From: Bacillota bacterium
GTDB lineage: Bacteria > Bacillota > Clostridia > Oscillospirales > CAG-272
NCBI GenBank assembly: GCA_021199825.1
Contig: JAJQHI010000151.1
Span: 1-11,326, forward strand
Reading direction: 5' to 3'
DNA: 11,326 bases
A program made the position numbers and the translations under genes. The notes beneath the pieces are model-generated. The model was not told the DNA's origin. It was given only the letters and a program-made list of their open reading frames with translations, and did not search any database. Below, one piece after another: positions 1,837 through 6,737 of this stretch (positions are counted from its first letter, which is position 1; every line of letters begins with the position of its first letter).

Positions 1837-1865
1837 ATTATACCCCCAGCCCCCTTGATTGTCAA
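1837..1865 (-). promoter_or_regulatory. Consensus sigma-A promoter of htpG (P1)
   Basis: On the minus strand a perfect TTGACA (1860-1865) and a perfect TATAAT (1837-1842) are separated by exactly 17 nt. Transcription would start near 1830, giving a leader of about 75 nt before htpG. I see no CIRCE inverted repeat (TTAGCACTC-N9-GAGTGCTAA), so HrcA control is not supported by the sequence. Confidence 0.85.
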
Positions 1866-1882: not shown

Positions 1883-1998
1883 GGGGCAATCGGAGCTCTG
1901 CTCCAAGCCCCGCTTAAGGGGGACTTTTCGAGAAAAGTCCCCCTTAAGAATCCTCCCAAAAGCTTTTAAAAGGGGAGCTATGACAGGCTGGGATGAGG
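1883..1998 (-). repeat. Dispersed palindromic element, copy A (reverse orientation)
   Basis: Read on the minus strand, it starts with the leader CCTCATCCCAGCCTGTCATA (1979-1998). It continues through a CCCCTTTTAAAAGCTTTTGGG block into a perfect 16-bp hairpin: CTTAAGGGGGACTTTT at 1913-1928 pairs with 1933-1948, with a 4-nt loop. It ends in a nested hairpin in which GGGGC (1883-1887) and GGAGC (1892-1896) pair with GCTCC (1900-1904) and GCCCC (1907-1911). The same order of parts occurs in copies B (2070-2174) and C (6581-6681). It lies upstream of the htpG promoter and has no coding potential. Confidence 0.85.
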
Positions 1999-2016
1999 TA
2001 AAGCGCTAAGTCGAAG

Positions 2017-2051
2017 AAAAAGCATCACATTTTGCAATGTGGTGCTTTTTT
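2017..2051 (-). terminator. Bidirectional rho-independent terminator
   Basis: A 15-bp stem (2017-2031 with 2036-2050) has a TTGC loop. It is flanked by an A-run on the left and a T-run (2046-2051) on the right, so both strands can form a hairpin followed by U residues. The core pairs GCATCACATT with AATGTGGTGC, with one G-U wobble on the + strand and one mismatch on the minus strand. It most likely ends the leftward flavoprotein/ferredoxin transcript, since no rightward gene precedes it. Confidence 0.8.
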
Positions 2052-2069
2052 AATTGATTTGCCGCTCTG

Positions 2070-2174
2070 CCTCATCAAGGACAATCCTATTTCCCCTTTT
2101 AAAAAGTTTTGGGGTTTCCAAAGGGGGATTTTTCAAAATCCCCCTTTGGCGTGGTTTGGAGCGGAGCTCCAAAA
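2070..2174 (+). repeat. Dispersed palindromic element, copy B
   Basis: The leader CCTCATC (2070-2076) is followed by CCCCTTTTAAAAAGTTTTGGGG. Next comes a perfect 15-bp hairpin, CCAAAGGGGGATTTT (2118-2132) with its complement at 2135-2149. It ends in an 8-bp hairpin TTTGGAGC-GGA-GCTCCAAA (2155-2173). The layout matches copies A and C, with different but still complementary stem bases. Its end is only 3 nt from the stop codon of the ferredoxin gene. It is oriented head to head with copy A across the terminator at 2017-2051. Confidence 0.85.
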
Positions 2175-2176
2175 GC

Positions 2177-2464
2177 CTACACGCTTCTCTCAAAATCCGT
2201 TTCGTTGTATATCGGGTGATGCAGCGAAATCGCGCCCGTCGGGCACTCCATCACGCACCTGCCGCAGTACCAGCACTCACCCGGATAAAGCACAGCCGGA
2301 TGCTTCCCGCGCTCACCGCTCGGCATCATCACGTCTGATTGGCATACAGCCGTGCATCTGCCGCAGCCGATGCAGAGCCTGTCGTCAAATCTCAGCGGTC
2401 GGACGCTGCACCCGACAGCCTCAGCCTTCGGCACAAACTTGTTTTTCAGATTCTCGCCCCTCAT
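2177..2464 (-). CDS. Two-[4Fe-4S] ferredoxin subunit, partner of the upstream flavoprotein
   Basis: A 95-residue ferredoxin-like electron-transfer protein. It has two CxxCxxCxxxC motifs, C31/C34/C37/C41 and C64/C67/C70/C74 (the second followed by PTGAI), enough for two [4Fe-4S] clusters. The first motif lacks the usual proline after its last cysteine. A roughly 22-residue loop between motifs recalls the AprB/8Fe ferredoxin class. Its ATG overlaps the TGA of the flavoprotein gene (ATGA at 2461-2464). That implies translational coupling and a stoichiometric complex in which it passes electrons to or from the FAD. An SD-like GGAGG lies inside the end of the upstream gene. The stop is TAG, directly before repeat B. 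The fold and clusters are sure; the redox partner and substrate are unknown. Confidence 0.9.
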   Translation of the reverse strand: MRGENLKNKFVPKAEAVGCSVRPLRFDDRLCIGCGRCTAVCQSDVMMPSGERGKHPAVLYPGECWYCGRCVMECPTGAISLHHPIYNETDFERSV

Positions 2465-4383
2465 TTCGCCGCCTCCTCGCTGTGCTTTTCATATTCCTGC
2501 TCAAGCTCACCCCAGTATCCGTGCTCAAGCGTCCGCGTTATGGGCTTCCCACCCTCTCCGCGCTTTGTCACAATAAATAAATTCTCCGCCTCTGTTCTTG
2601 CGGGGTCGGCATCCGAGCGCTCAAATGAGAGCGGCGCGCTGTCAGCCCTTCGCGCCAAGCATGAATAAAGTATCAGCTCGCATACGTCGAGTATGTCTGA
2701 CACCTCATGCGCCCGCATAAGCTCATGCGGGTTTCTGCATGAAATCCGCGGATACATCCTGCGCCTGTATTCGTCAACCGCGGCAAGCCCCTCATAAAGC
2801 AAACGGTCTGACTTCACAGCACCGCATGTGCGCTGCATCATCTTCGATACGGCACGGTTCAGCTCGCGCCAGTCCATGCCGCCGTCCGAATAAAGCGGCG
2901 CGTATATCCTCTCCGCCTCACTCCTGATAAAGCTCTCGCTTTCGTTTGACGCAGCCCTTTCGTTTTCACGCGCATATTTCGCGGCGTGACGCCCCGCGTA
3001 ATGCCCCGTCGCCGCGGCAAATCCCGCGCAGTCCGAGGAATAAAGCTGATCGCCCGCGGCGAAAAGCCCGCCTATGTTTGTCATCAGCTCCCAGTCGTTC
3101 AGCACACCTCCCGGCGCGCCAAAAAGCTGACGCTCGTTGTCCGAAAACGCAGCTGATTTCCAGCCCGTGCCGTATACGCGCAGCCTGTCACGCGACGGAT
3201 CAAACCCGCGGCGCGTCAGGGCGTCATAAACGGGAATTTTAGTCTTTCCCTCCTCGCCTACCATCATGCCGAATATGACACTCCGCTCATATTCGGGCAT
3301 ACGCGACAGATCAGCGTAAAACGGCGGCTTGTAGCCCATCTTTTCCGCCAAATCAAAGCTCAGTGTCTCCGGTCCGCGGTATTCGTATTTCGCCTCGTCG
3401 ATAATTCCTCCCTTGAGGAAGAAATCCTGTCCCGCCGCCGGACGATAGCGTCCGTCAACGCTCTTTATTTCGTTCCCGTCGCGGTCAAGATACGGCAGCT
3501 CGCGCCCCTCACTGTCCACAATAGTCGCCGCGTACCATGTGTTGTGGTTGTTGCCCGCGGAATACGTCGGAAAGCTCCGCCCCGCCGCAGAATACTCGGC
3601 GCGAACCGATTTTTCCATCATCGTGAATTCAACGCCCGCGCGCCATCCCATCGCGTGACCCGTGCCCACGCACTGTAAAGGACGGAACTCCGAAAGCCCC
3701 GGCACATCGGGGTCAAAGAGCCATATCCTTGAAGGGCGCGACATCGCGAGCACAACGGCGCCCGCGTATACGGCGTGAAGCTCCCCTGTATGTATATTCA
3801 TAAGCACCGCGCCAGCTACCCTCTCCCCGTCGTCTGACATGATGAGGGAGACCGCCTCCGTATATTCAAAAAGCGCAGCTCCGAGTGAGAGCGCGCGGCG
3901 CCGAAGCGCGGGCTTGAAGCCCGAACCCCATACGCGGATTGTATATCTGTTGTCGTAATCATACGCAAACATCAGCTTCGTTTCGTCGTCGCGGAAGGGC
4001 GCGCCCACAAATTCATCGTTCGTATCGCGTATTTTCGCGCCCGCCGCCTCAAGGTCGAGAAGCCTGTCCCACCCCTCGCGGCATTCAATGTAGTGCGCAA
4101 TTGCGTTGCTGTACCCGTCCTGCTCGTGTATGAGAGCGCGCGCCATCACACCGGGCGATACGCGGCAGCACGGATTCGTGCACGCCATCTCCCAGTGGTC
4201 AACACCTGAGCCTGCGGCGCCTGAGCCCGCGATATTCGCCTTGTCAACAAGAATCACGTCAGCACCCGCCTCAGCGGCTCCCACCGCGGCGTGCGCGCCC
4301 GCCATGCCTCCGCCCAGCACAAGCACGTCGCAGGTGACGTGCGAAATTTCACCTATCTTATTTTCATATTGCCATTTGTACAT
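2461..4383 (-). CDS. FAD-dependent oxidoreductase, fumarate reductase/AprA-like flavoprotein
   Basis: A 640-residue flavoprotein of the succinate dehydrogenase/fumarate reductase flavoprotein superfamily. The N-terminal Rossmann segment CDVLVLGGGMAGAHAA (about 19-33, G24/G26/G29) ends in the ribose-binding acid at Asp47 (VILVDK). It is followed by SGAAGSGVDHW, the flavin-binding loop. The C-terminal FAD motif GGLFAAGDQLYSSDCAGF lies in the later half, and a helical tail of about 150 residues follows, as in fumarate reductase/AprA proteins. There is no signal peptide or membrane segment, so a cytosolic enzyme is expected. It is followed by an overlapping two-cluster ferredoxin gene, as in AprA/AprB arrangements, but nothing nearby (no sat, no dsr, no quinone-linked membrane subunit) points to sulfate or fumarate respiration. 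The substrate cannot be assigned. The start is supported by GGGGGA about 8 nt upstream. Confidence 0.88.
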   Translation of the reverse strand: MYKWQYENKIGEISHVTCDVLVLGGGMAGAHAAVGAAEAGADVILVDKANIAGSGAAGSGVDHWEMACTNPCCRVSPGVMARALIHEQDGYSNAIAHYIECREGWDRLLDLEAAGAKIRDTNDEFVGAPFRDDETKLMFAYDYDNRYTIRVWGSGFKPALRRRALSLGAALFEYTEAVSLIMSDDGERVAGAVLMNIHTGELHAVYAGAVVLAMSRPSRIWLFDPDVPGLSEFRPLQCVGTGHAMGWRAGVEFTMMEKSVRAEYSAAGRSFPTYSAGNNHNTWYAATIVDSEGRELPYLDRDGNEIKSVDGRYRPAAGQDFFLKGGIIDEAKYEYRGPETLSFDLAEKMGYKPPFYADLSRMPEYERSVIFGMMVGEEGKTKIPVYDALTRRGFDPSRDRLRVYGTGWKSAAFSDNERQLFGAPGGVLNDWELMTNIGGLFAAGDQLYSSDCAGFAAATGHYAGRHAAKYARENERAASNESESFIRSEAERIYAPLYSDGGMDWRELNRAVSKMMQRTCGAVKSDRLLYEGLAAVDEYRRRMYPRISCRNPHELMRAHEVSDILDVCELILYSCLARRADSAPLSFERSDADPARTEAENLFIVTKRGEGGKPITRTLEHGYWGELEQEYEKHSEEAAK

Positions 4384-4418
4384 ATTGGATTCCCCCGAAA
4401 AACGCTTGGTTTAGTCTA

Positions 4419-4447
4419 ATTATACATCGCTCACACTGAAATTTCAA
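4419..4447 (-). promoter_or_regulatory. Sigma-A promoter of the flavoprotein-ferredoxin operon
   Basis: On the minus strand, TTGAAA (4442-4447) and a perfect TATAAT (4419-4424) are separated by 17 nt. Transcription would start about 30 nt before the flavoprotein ATG. The promoter lies directly after the terminator of the preceding lipoprotein unit, so the two units are probably independent. Confidence 0.8.
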
Positions 4448-4457
4448 CACATAAACA

Positions 4458-4479
4458 GTCCCCCGCGGGTGCGGGGGAC
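4458..4479 (-). terminator. Probable terminator of the lipoprotein unit
   Basis: A GC-rich perfect 9-bp stem, GTCCCCCGC (4458-4466) with GCGGGGGAC (4471-4479), and a 4-nt loop. It lies about 25 nt after the stop of the leftward lipoprotein gene. The U-run on the minus strand is poor (TGTTTATG), so termination may be partial. Confidence 0.6.
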
Positions 4480-4503
4480 TTGCGTCATTTTTATTTTGCG
4501 CGC

Positions 4504-5634
4504 TTACGCTTCAATGTAAACGGTGATGACGGCTTCATATCCCGCAAACGATATAATCCAGTCCTCGCATTCGGCAAAGTCATCCGCGCTTTCAAACGTC
4601 AGCTGCACCATCGGAGAATATTTGGCGATATACGAGGTATATCCCGCCGCAGATTCTGAAATCCCGTATTCGCTGACAAATGGGGATGTCACCGCAGATA
4701 TCGCCTCCTTGACCGCCTCGCGGTAAGCAGCCCGGGCAGCGTCCACCTCCTCGTCTGTCGAGTTGATGTTCAGGCTGGATTTGTCCATTTCGGGCATATC
4801 GGCGGGCGTTTCAAGAACAACAAGCACCAGCACACCGCCATCGGATACACCGGACACAGCACTCACGTCCTCATCGTCAAGTGAGAGCGACGCGGAAATG
4901 CCGTCTCCGCTCTCACAGTAAACGATTTTCGACGATGCCTCCCCGTCTGTGTTCTCCTCCGTCACTGCCGCGCCTTCATTCGCACCGGTGATGTTCCACT
5001 CGACTTCAAGCTCACCGAGCTCGTACCCTTCAATGTCAGCCTTGGATACCTCAGCGGTGACGTACCAATAAACTTCGTCAGCAGTACTGGTGCCGCCTCT
5101 CACTTCGTTTATTTGCACAACGGGTACAATCGAGGAATCTTTGATGACAATATGCGTCATGCCTTCGATATCCGTCGAGCTTGCACCATAGACCTCGACG
5201 ACAACAAGCGAGCTTTCATCGAAGAAGCTTTCCTCATATTCAAGTCCGACGCTTGAGCTTATCTCCGACCATTCTTCGCAAGAGGAAATAATTGTCGTAT
5301 ATGTTTTCTGCGAAAATTCTCCCCCGTCAGATTTTGAAACAGTATAATTGCCGTTCGCAATAGACTCGGTGTTGTTGTGGGTTATAACCATTCCATCGTA
5401 TTTGACCGCTTCATATTCCGAGTAAGCGTCTTCAGCCGTCACTTCTTCCTCGTCCGTCTCAGCCGCATCCTCCGCAGTGCTTTCTCCGCTTTCCGCACCG
5501 TCCGTGCTTACGCTGTCTGTGTCCGCACTGCTGTCAGCAGCAGTGTTCACCGTACCGCCGTCCGCGCCGTCCGCGCATGAAAAGATCGAAAAGCACATAA
5601 CCGCACAGATGATAAACGCAAAAATCCTTTTCAT
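4504..5634 (-). CDS. Putative secreted lipoprotein of unknown function
   Basis: A 376-residue predicted lipoprotein. I chose the ATG at 5632-5634 over one 22 codons upstream because a strong GAGGAGG lies about 7 nt before it and it exposes a normal signal peptide. That peptide has Lys-Arg, then a hydrophobic core, then IFSC with Cys20 as the probable lipidation site. Residues 21-75 form a Ser/Thr/Asp/Glu-rich linker. A globular region (about 85-215) has the pattern of clostridial lipoprotein domains with 'EEW...YEESFFDESSLVVVEV', loosely like the PrcB C-terminal family; this similarity is from memory and weak. A further region (about 245-376) with a charged helix and a beta-rich end is unrecognised. 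It lies 74 nt downstream of the interrupted lipoprotein and probably shares its promoter. The function is unknown. Confidence 0.8.
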   Translation of the reverse strand: MKRIFAFIICAVMCFSIFSCADGADGGTVNTAADSSADTDSVSTDGAESGESTAEDAAETDEEEVTAEDAYSEYEAVKYDGMVITHNNTESIANGNYTVSKSDGGEFSQKTYTTIISSCEEWSEISSSVGLEYEESFFDESSLVVVEVYGASSTDIEGMTHIVIKDSSIVPVVQINEVRGGTSTADEVYWYVTAEVSKADIEGYELGELEVEWNITGANEGAAVTEENTDGEASSKIVYCESGDGISASLSLDDEDVSAVSGVSDGGVLVLVVLETPADMPEMDKSSLNINSTDEEVDAARAAYREAVKEAISAVTSPFVSEYGISESAAGYTSYIAKYSPMVQLTFESADDFAECEDWIISFAGYEAVITVYIEA

Positions 5635-5708
5635 GTTAGTATCCTCCTCAATTTTTTCAATTGTAAACTGTCTCGCCGCTCCGTTTTTCAACCTCGTCAA
5701 GCGCTCTT

Positions 5709-6290
5709 CTAATCCAACACACTGCCAACCGTAAACGCGGCGGAGGCGTACATAACATCAGAGCTGCCCCTCGTACCGCATTTAACAACCACCATGTAAC
5801 TGCCCGATTCAAGCTCTCCGTACCAATCGGAAAGAAGCAATTGAACGTCATCATTTGAGCTTTCCGCTCCTACCTGATAAGTAAATTCGCCGCATATGCA
5901 GTCGTCCAAAACATCAAGCCTTTCGAAACCCCCGTTCACCGATTTATAAAGAATCATATTATCGTATCCGTTTCCGACGTTAAGGCTTGAGGAATAGCCG
6001 TTTTCAATTGAGAGAATAATTATGTCCGTATCTGATGCAATATTCTCCGTCACGATTCCAAGCGTTATATTTTCGTCAAACTATATACTTGAAAAATCAT
6101 CAAGGTCAGCGCTCACCGTTTCCGATGTAATATCCCCGTCACTGACCGGATTTGAGGATTCGTTTTCGGCGCTTTCAGCGCTTTCCGTGCCGCCGATAAC
6201 CGTCTCGTTGTCTGCATTGTTGTCCCTCACGCATCCAAACGCGCACAACACCATCGCAGCGCATAGAATGAAAATCGATAGTTTCCTCAT
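5709..6290 (-). pseudogene. Lipoprotein with Ig-like domain, interrupted by in-frame TAG
   Basis: One continuous leftward frame of 193 codons is split by a single TAG at 6081-6083 (codon 70). The first part has a strong GGAGGAG ribosome binding site, a lipoprotein signal (MRKLSIFILC...AFGC, Cys20) and an Asn/Glu/Ser-rich linker. The part after the TAG (codons 71-193) is a beta-rich domain. Its 'LSIENGY...YKSVNGGFERLD...WYGELESGSYMVVV' pattern resembles bacterial Ig-like domains of the Big_14 type, where a YG-L-x-G-x-Y signature is common. The frame is unbroken on both sides, so a recent nonsense mutation, read-through or a sequencing error are all possible. An internal GTG at 6051-6053 has only a weak upstream SD and would give a product with no signal peptide. 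The real stop is also TAG (5709-5711). Confidence 0.75.
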
Positions 6291-6323
6291 GTCAACTCCT
6301 CCTTTGAGTTTTCCCTTGCTTAT

Positions 6324-6353
6324 ATTTTACACCATATCTTCCGTTCATGTCAA
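6324..6353 (-). promoter_or_regulatory. Sigma-A promoter of the lipoprotein unit
   Basis: On the minus strand, a perfect TTGACA (6348-6353) and TAAAAT (6324-6329) are 18 nt apart. Transcription would start roughly 27 nt before the first lipoprotein ATG (6288-6290), leaving room for AAAGGAGGAG. The promoter is strong by consensus, so the interrupted gene is probably still transcribed. Confidence 0.75.
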
Positions 6354-6365
6354 GCGAGCTTAATG

Positions 6366-6530
6366 GTCTTCTCACCCTATTAGTCGATATGACATTGAGC
6401 TTTCGCAAAAAGCGAAACCTCAAGCCCGGCACAAATGCGCTGCATTTGTGCTTTTTCGCGTTTTTTTCAGCGCACTCAAGCTCATTCTCACCTGTTCACC
6501 TTATTAGTCTGTTTTTTTTCGAAAAAGTCT
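6366..6530. repeat. Hairpin-rich intergenic block with repeated TATTAGTC motif
   Basis: No gene is visible here. The motif TTCTCACC followed by TATTAGTC occurs at about 6368-6385 and again, with a 7-nt insertion, at about 6485-6509. Each copy is followed by a short palindrome: TTTCGC-AAAAA-GCGAAA (6401-6417) after the first, and TTTTTCGAAAAA (6515-6526) after the second. Between them lies the hairpin at 6429-6456. The block separates the divergent lipoprotein and U32 units. Its function is unknown. Confidence 0.5.
6429..6456 (+). terminator. Terminator-like hairpin pointing right, no gene upstream
   Basis: A perfect 10-bp stem, GCACAAATGC (6429-6438) with GCATTTGTGC (6442-6451), a GCT loop and TTTTT (6452-6456). 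On the + strand this is a textbook rho-independent terminator, but the only nearby gene to the left is transcribed the other way. It could stop antisense transcripts, end a small RNA, or be part of a repeat. Confidence 0.6.
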
Positions 6531-6580
6531 CACCCAAAATCGAAATTTCTCAAAAAAACTTTTTATGAACACCCACCTCC

Positions 6581-6681
6581 CCTCATCCCAGCCTTTCATA
6601 TACCCCTTCCCAAAAGTTTTTGAAGGTGCAGGGGGTATTTTTTTAAAAATACCCCCTGCCGGTGTTCGGGGCGGAGCCCCG
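6581..6681 (+). repeat. Dispersed palindromic element, copy C
   Basis: It begins with CCTCATCCCAGCCTTTCATA (6581-6600), nearly identical to the copy A leader. CCCCTTCCCAAAAGTTTTTG follows, then a 15-bp hairpin, GCAGGGGGTATTTTT (6628-6642) with its perfect complement at 6645-6659. It ends in CGGGGC-GGA-GCCCCG (6667-6681). The layout and spacing match copies A and B. It sits about 55 nt upstream of the U32 gene promoter, with the heptamer tract between. Confidence 0.85.
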
Positions 6682-6689
6682 ATAACTCT

Positions 6690-6731
6690 CCACTCCTCAC
6701 TGACCACTAACCACTAATCACTGACCACTAA
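6690..6731 (+). repeat. 7-nt tandem repeat, six units
   Basis: Six consecutive heptamers in register: CCACTCC, TCACTGA, CCACTAA, CCACTAA, TCACTGA, CCACTAA. They share the core YCACT. The tract lies between palindromic copy C and the -35 of the U32 gene promoter. It is non-coding and resembles short tandemly repeated heptamers known from other bacteria; its length may vary between strains. Confidence 0.75.
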
Positions 6732-6737
6732 TCCCTC

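Follow-up and report, generated by a model that had tools for sequence, protein, structure and literature searches.

Covariation between the two strands of a stem is commonly treated as proof of selection on RNA structure. The window, the whole stretch of 11,326 nt analysed here, is contig 191 of a draft genome (1.15 Mb, 61.6% complete). A first-pass annotation of it noted three copies of a palindromic element whose stems differ but stay paired, and took this to point to selection on secondary structure or to a hairpin-processing mobilisation of the REP/MITE kind. The locus thus raises the question of whether the paired changes reflect the needs of an RNA or the way in which the DNA itself is copied and dispersed.

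A two-arm element and a solo arm in the window

The three copies were confirmed at 1883-1998 (reverse), 2070-2174 and 6581-6681, and the CCTCATC leader, the AAAAG.TTTT block, the long stem and the short stem were verified in all of them. They are not three separate copies, however, as the first two are not independent. Between them runs a 67-nt inverted repeat (1955-2021 / 2047-2113, 72% complementary), and the segment 1883-2176 folds as a single cross-shaped structure at -167.3 kcal/mol. Because they form a near-palindromic inverted repeat, facing each other and joined by a centre, copies 1 and 2 are treated as the inverted arms of one two-arm element, and copy 3 as a solo arm. RNA folding z-scores in arm orientation were -4.76, -3.68 and -4.31 for copies 1, 2 and 3, respectively, and for each copy none of 200 shuffles folded as well as the real arm.

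The complete element (1883-2176, assigned to neither strand) was delimited by the inverted repeat and the fold and comprises copies 1 and 2 plus the centre. At the outer end of its left arm, on the minus strand, lies a short GC hairpin GGAGC/GCTCC (1892-1904; sequence and fold), followed by a long hairpin with complementary arms of 17 nt (1913-1948), located by an inverted-repeat scan and the fold. Further inwards are the CCCC..AAAAG.TTTT..GGG block (1954-1977), defined from the inverted repeat and copy comparison, and a CCTCATCCCAGCC leader (1978-1998), which comparison with other copies in the same genome places in arm type A. The centre (1999-2069, likewise without strand) contains a TAAAGCGCTAAGTCGAAG stem and, at 2016-2051, a terminator-like hairpin, as indicated by the fold and a terminator scan. 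The right arm, on the plus strand, has a CCTCATC leader of arm type B with a AAAAAGTTTT block (2070-2117; copy comparison), a long hairpin CCAAAGGGGGATTTT/AAAATCCCCCTTTGG (2118-2149) and a short hairpin TTTGGAGC/GCTCCAAA (2155-2173), the two hairpins being recognised from sequence and fold. The solo arm (6581-6683, plus strand) carries a type A leader, a long hairpin at 6628-6659 and a short hairpin at 6667-6681.

On its outer side the right short hairpin lies 3 nt away from the stop codon (2177-2179, minus strand) that closes a ferredoxin-like gene. Close beyond the left arm, a sigma-70 promoter matching the consensus at 12/12 positions lies upstream of htpG (1837-1865, minus strand); the scan of the window found two promoter-like sites, with 0.5 expected from shuffles. 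Since its ends abut both features, the element fills the intergenic gap between the stop codon and the htpG promoter. A T run was seen by eye on both strands of the centre hairpin, which the terminator scan flagged on the plus strand only; it is the one terminator-like site in the window, compared with 0.9 in shuffled sequence. With 3 mismatches allowed, the centre pattern occurs at 12 places of its own genome, as against 2 places for a reversed control, and the exact centre motif had no match across the named genome collection. No part of the window matched any of 4227 Rfam families at the gathering score, so that a known Rfam RNA is not supported there.

Family anatomy, distribution and turnover

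Arm 3, used as a query against its own genome, gave 37 matches, counting both strands and the arm itself. Other places are reached with E values as low as 2.4e-23 and copy 1 with 2.0e-4, which puts the copies beyond chance. The repeated unit is an arm of about 80-110 nt, in which a AAAGTTTTTG block is followed by a long hairpin, mostly of 14-17 bp, and a short GC hairpin. In the full element two such arms stand head-to-head about a centre with the short hairpins outermost, giving the order short hairpin, long hairpin, CAAAAACTTT block, centre, AAAGTTTTTG block, long hairpin, short hairpin. The layout is repeated in the own genome on contigs C55, C19, C25, C100, C108, C141 and C11, where two leader types occur, one on either side of the centre. 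A grammar-based finder gave 35 arm candidates in the loci examined from this genome, with both hairpins recognised in 20. The finder asks for a T-rich core and for stems of 11 or more pairs with no more than 2 mismatches, which biases it towards paired stems; this bias enters the results below on own-genome arms, per-genome stems, named-locus stems, orthologous sites, loops and the 43-sequence alignment, and leaves the 68-match set free.

Adjacent arms no more than 300 bp apart were compared in 1.84 Mb from five genomes of another genus of the family (g18). They were head-to-head in 44 of 47 cases, with one '++', two '--' and no tail-to-tail pair, and the spacing between the long hairpins of the 44 pairs had a median of 59.5 nt (48-64 nt in 28/44). 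Because neighbouring arms are nearly all head-to-head, the doublet is the unit, as in REPINs. The inverted arms correspond to terminal inverted repeats of the MITE kind, although the stem sequence differs between the arms of one element.

A covariance model built from 20 own-genome arms and applied at E ≤ 0.01, a search of the kind that the first-pass annotation had proposed, showed that many more copies exist. Matches were obtained in 30 of 58 genomes, the own genome included: 11/11 in the genus (again with the own genome), 14/24 in other genera of the family and 5/23 among further genomes of the order. In the collection of named genomes, at least 117 stretches matched the pattern of invariant core plus short hairpin. 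All 80 matches listed among these are titled Clostridia, Clostridiales or Oscillospiraceae, and 49 of those titles mention deer, sheep, goat, yak, reindeer or rabbit ('Lapin', as read). One of 299 genomes matched in a phylum sample in which just 13 candidates were scored per genome, and it was the own genome. The window element had no match in phages or plasmids, nor the arm pattern in viral contigs; these negatives are weak, as the element is lineage-specific and the exact pattern matches only 9/189 loci. No account recognisable as this palindrome family of Clostridia was met in the literature searched.

Placement relative to genes was determined with a codon-based gene caller on large contigs of two relatives (G027 and G024) and on the named loci. 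None of the 127 full arms placed lies inside a predicted gene. The outer end of the arm faces a stop codon in 81 cases and a start codon in 46. A stop codon is no more than 20 nt from the arm end in 47/127, as against 5.0% of 4380 random intergenic points, and no more than 10 nt away in 36/127; among the 46 arms listed within 20 nt, the short hairpin starts 3-6 nt past the stop codon in 26. One of the 36 arms nearest a stop apparently overlaps the gene by 41 nt. An arm was present in 17/62 convergent, 75/295 co-directional and 3/81 divergent intergenic gaps of 100 bp or more, figures of which only the comparison between classes is meaningful because the named loci were selected for holding an arm. 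In two genomes, sampled in part, some 16% of the predicted genes have an arm within 500 bp.

Comparison of species of genus g18 gave 35 element pairs common to orthologous sites and 21 comparisons in which one species has an element and no arm was detected in the other. Twelve filled/empty alignments were inspected and seven were judged clean absences (G354:C3 number 10; G354:C7 numbers 2 and 6; G357:C55 numbers 0 and 1; G357:C32 numbers 0 and 1). Among the remainder, the 'empty' site G354:C7 number 7 carries a similar, degraded hairpin, G354:C7 number 8 has kept the leader and short hairpin and is missing the long hairpin, G357:C120 number 1 retains another arm, and two alignments were not readable as filled or empty. 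No target-site duplication was recognised in the 12 alignments, in which the ends are blurred by divergence; the relatives are too divergent (flanks mostly 70-90% identical) for the element ends to be fixed. Dispersal, together with presence and absence at matching sites, suggests that the elements are or have been mobile.

The REP transposase family PF01797 (RAYT, Y1) had no match in the 11 genomes of the own genome's genus and none in the arm-rich genomes G022, G024 and G027. RAYT/IS200-type mobilisation within the genus was rejected on the absence from 11/11 genomes. PF01797 matches were present in 23/58 genomes, some of which have arms, and six Y1 loci of relatives yielded a single weak covariance-model match (E 0.0098). 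In two relatives (1.69 Mb), 2 and 13 repeated gene families were found among 576 and 788 genes; no mobiliser was evident among these 15 families, and those of at least three members had no arms within 500 bp. Repeated genes such as transposases are often lost from draft assemblies, so a missing transposase in these drafts is weak evidence. In one two-member family, of about 440 residues, both members are flanked on either side by arms no more than 500 bp away, and in another this holds for one member. The REP/MITE-like interpretation holds in part: a dispersed palindromic family with strong paired variation exists, but a linked transposase was not found (PF01797 0/11).

Paired change in the long stems

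As three copies are too few for a covariation argument, paired change was re-tested on 68 unique matches found by invariant core, spacing and short hairpin, with no base of the variable stem specified. Duplicates and matches with less than 30 nt upstream were removed; the 68 are not fully independent, since several come from the same genome. Across nine variable pairs adjacent to the core, 573/612 pairs were Watson-Crick, the rest comprising 12 G·U, 10 A·C and 17 pairs of other kinds, and all nine were Watson-Crick in 50 matches. When the left strand of one copy was combined with the right strand of another, Watson-Crick pairs fell to 34-70% per position, which bears out the observation that the stems differ yet stay paired. 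In an alignment of 43 sequences, taken from 45 listed stems with two omitted for a differently placed short hairpin, the covariation score was 0.502, compared with 0.173 for shuffles and at most 0.152 for slid versions; the score exceeded all 500 shuffles, in an alignment selected for 15-bp stems and so biased towards pairing, as the 68-match set is not. Further copies and covariation beyond shuffles are both present, and a lack of either would have told against the first-pass annotation. The pattern was the same among the distinct stems of single genomes, of which there were 29 in the own genome (14-pair stems), 39 in G027 and 17 in G024.

A selected RNA strand is expected to tolerate G·U. 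Selection on one RNA strand is not indicated by the 68-match set, in which A·C (10) is as scarce as G·U (12). Among distinct stems, the counts of G·U and A·C were level in the own genome (4 to 4) and in G027 (5 to 5), and stood at 9 to 1 in G024 and at 9 to 4 in the 69 stems of the named loci. Overall the counts give little support for selection on one RNA strand, G024 excepted; G024 and the named loci lean to RNA because G·U exceeds A·C.

The course of change was followed at orthologous sites of genus g18 in 39 comparable arm pairs, some sites recurring in several genome pairs; four more were set aside for a differing loop register. Over 582 base pairs, we counted 100 both-sided changes that kept the pair, 10 both-sided changes with a non-Watson-Crick partner and 17 one-sided changes, the last being a lower bound because the arm finder under-counts broken stems. 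Paired changes numbered none in 11 arm pairs, one or two in 9 and three to seven in 19. In the clearest case (G027:C30:25870 and G354:C2:11399), five pairs differ and the leader is almost unchanged. Leader identity was 0.68-0.69 next to changed stems, 0.85 next to unchanged stems and 0.61 between random arms, and replacement of the whole arm competes with change in place because the leaders of changed arms are only 0.68-0.69 identical. Stem and spacer tend to travel together as types common to several genomes. Homogenisation of stems specific to single genomes was not supported, as exact-match rates were alike within genomes (0.33 and 0.36) and between them (0.34 and 0.27).

The loops were compared as well. 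In sets not selected by loop, the central dinucleotide is TC in 175/249 arms, and 9 of 11 double changes of this dinucleotide gave GA, its exact reverse complement. An inverted loop was present in 13/381 arms of a wider set. In seven of the 13 the orientation is set by a recognised short hairpin; of the remaining six, at least one is a questionable arm. Copying through the tip of a hairpin inverts the loop; the footprint would look the same had recombination flipped the hairpin. Multi-base compensatory change and loop inversion have been described as products of template switching (PMC8794818). The loop inversions and the multi-pair changes at orthologous sites fit DNA-level copying between hairpin arms. 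As first stated, the claim that paired change points to selection on secondary structure is not supported, since symmetric wobble, loop inversions and multi-pair changes fit copying of the DNA.

Readings of the family and known systems

We consider it probable that the elements form a non-coding, REPIN-like palindromic family of uncultured Clostridia, in which the REP transposase is absent and which is placed like REPs behind genes. On this reading the elements would spread as non-autonomous DNA units by way of single-stranded hairpins, processed by some enzyme, and solo arms would be leftovers of losses and arm decay. Each stem would stay perfect through template switching inside the hairpin, whereby a change on one strand is copied into its partner, and through exchange of hairpins between copies. 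Selection against broken hairpins may act besides, to whatever extent. On mRNA the elements probably behave as 3'-end hairpins, in the manner of E. coli REPs near stop codons, a role suggested by their position, and the centre in the window may also terminate transcription. Judged from comparison of the sequences, arm-to-arm copying appears to be the best fit for the strand symmetry, the multi-pair changes and the loop inversions. A bolder version, which we hold to be less likely than not, sees the elements as self-correcting palindromes: long stems would be rewritten whole from the other arm of the hairpin or from another copy, and pairing could thereby outlast full turnover of the sequence without selection of each change; dispersal may be due to a hairpin-processing enzyme other than a REP (Y1) transposase.

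The arms could instead be structured 3'-UTR or terminator RNAs, the stems being kept by compensatory mutation for a need of the mRNA such as 3'-end protection or the termination of translation or transcription. Such a role agrees with the start of the short hairpins 3-6 nt past the stop in 26/46 arms listed within 20 nt, with the scarcity of arms in divergent gaps (3/81), with the strong covariation, and with the excess of G·U over A·C in G024 (9 to 1) and, weakly, in the named loci (9 to 4); stalling of ribosomes has been reported for REPs located no more than 15 nt from a stop codon (PMC12306157). We nevertheless regard it as a somewhat unlikely explanation, in view of the rare and strand-symmetric wobble (G·U 12, A·C 10) of the stem-blind 68-match set, the frequent change of several pairs together at orthologous sites, and a terminator-like site that in the window is confined to the centre and is no commoner than in shuffles.

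Two further explanations concern the DNA alone. Ectopic recombination might shuffle a fixed set of old hairpin types among sites with no new paired mutation. The recurrence of stem types across genomes, each with its own spacer, and the 19/39 orthologous arm pairs that differ by three to seven pairs would be expected of it, but 9/39 differ by just one or two paired changes, and the distinct stems counted, 29 of 14 pairs in the own genome besides 39 in G027, exceed a small fixed set, so that recombination by itself seems unlikely. Classical MITEs, deletion derivatives of DNA transposons whose outer ends are acted on by a DDE transposase, would share the inverted arms, the scattered intergenic copies and the filled and empty sites. 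They are a quite improbable source, given that no target-site duplication was recognised in the 12 alignments, though divergence limits that reading, and that repeated families of at least three members had no arms within 500 bp, a weak point as drafts lose transposases. The elements have a bearing beyond this locus: in an abundant natural family, covariation is very strong and the least biased set lacks the G·U asymmetry that one RNA strand would be expected to show, and such a family would allow a direct test of how often template switching mimics selection.

The nearest known systems were compared through their publications. REPINs (Bertels and Rainey 2011, PMC3116915) are alike in having inverted palindromic repeats around a spacer, an extragenic location and an over-represented doublet, and also in their singlets as likely remnants, their tandem clusters and the compensatory hairpin changes noted in them. 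They differ in that REPINs accompany RAYT transposases whereas PF01797 is absent in 11/11 genomes of the genus here, and in that each Clostridia arm has two hairpins, one mostly of 14-17 bp. The REPIN-like layout is extended here to Clostridia where no match was obtained for the enzyme believed to mobilise repeats of this kind.

GTAG- and CGTC-tagged REPs (PMC3733652) likewise lie downstream of genes and show alternative complementary stem residues among sub-families, and CGTC REPs are described as seemingly without a dedicated transposase, a likeness to the Clostridia family. Unlike that family, their stems are of 5-13 bp with frequent G-T pairs (PMC3733652). GTAG or CTAC was present within 6 nt outside the short hairpin in 3/193 arms and CGTC or GACG in 0/193, and none of the four was found in the other places examined around arms. 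The words 'Firmicutes' and 'Clostridi' are absent from the text of PMC3733652. The Clostridia family is accordingly REP-like in layout and placement, yet with no REP transposase and no GTAG/CGTC tags it is not filed as a member of the REPs.

E. coli REPs (PMC12306157) resemble it in that some are found no further than 15 nt from a stop codon, a position for which ribosome stalling is reported; their share is about 11% (446/4,072), compared with 47/127 Clostridia arms within 20 nt. The same source tabulates REPs in Bacillus subtilis, Acetivibrio clariflavus and Fervidicola ferrireducens, which are likened to the family by description only. Clop-1 of Clostridium perfringens (PMC2267715) is a further case of intergenic stem-loop repeats in Clostridia, and candidate RNAs of the human microbiome (PMC8040213) include 250 that are palindromic, 20 of them maybe REPs or another class; both were compared by description, and overlap with the present family is possible. 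For the paired change itself the closest parallel is that of template-switch hairpins (Monttinen and Loytynoja 2022, PMC8794818), whose footprints are multi-base compensatory change and loop inversion. Those footprints were described in RNA genes by ancestral reconstruction, whereas the case made here for Clostridia comes from comparisons of intergenic repeats.

Genes of the window

The lipoprotein-like gene on the minus strand (5709-6290) is interrupted by a single in-frame TAG, at its position 70, and is otherwise open throughout; the interruption may reflect a pseudogene, a sequencing error or recoding. The flavoprotein/ferredoxin pair (2177-4383, minus strand) matched fumarate reductase, adenylylsulfate reductase and ferredoxin as its top models, all far below the curated cut-offs.

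Sequences adjoining the arms

A degenerate 7-nt repeat (CACTGAC CACTAAC CACTAAT ...) comes directly after the solo arm, at 6684-6732. A near-identical tail lies beyond the outer end of another arm of the same draft genome (locus L003, plus strand), and shorter starts resembling it also follow the arm in loci L006 and L007. One arm also adjoins a shared 180-bp sequence (L094:1-180) at each of two contig ends, C233 (locus L094) and C108 of the own genome (locus L022), the two copies being 94% identical. The fact that two arms adjoin the same sequence there points to a longer repeat at which the assembly was interrupted.

An apparent rearrangement, additional hairpins and tandem arrays

In the arm at L022:1448-1550 (C108), the short hairpin precedes the long hairpin. 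Compared with the leader of this arm, its hairpin part seems to be turned around, which would be the expected product of recombination between inverted stems. Among the 40 listed element centres from G354 and G027, two genomes of genus g18, five contained an additional related hairpin (GACCTTTG..CAAATTTG..CAAAGGTC) and one contained a terminator-like hairpin; we read these extra hairpins as putative cargo carried in the centre. Loci L090 and L084 held three-unit tandem arrays, with one arm in each unit of about 170-200 bp, and these arrays resemble the ordered clusters known for REPINs.
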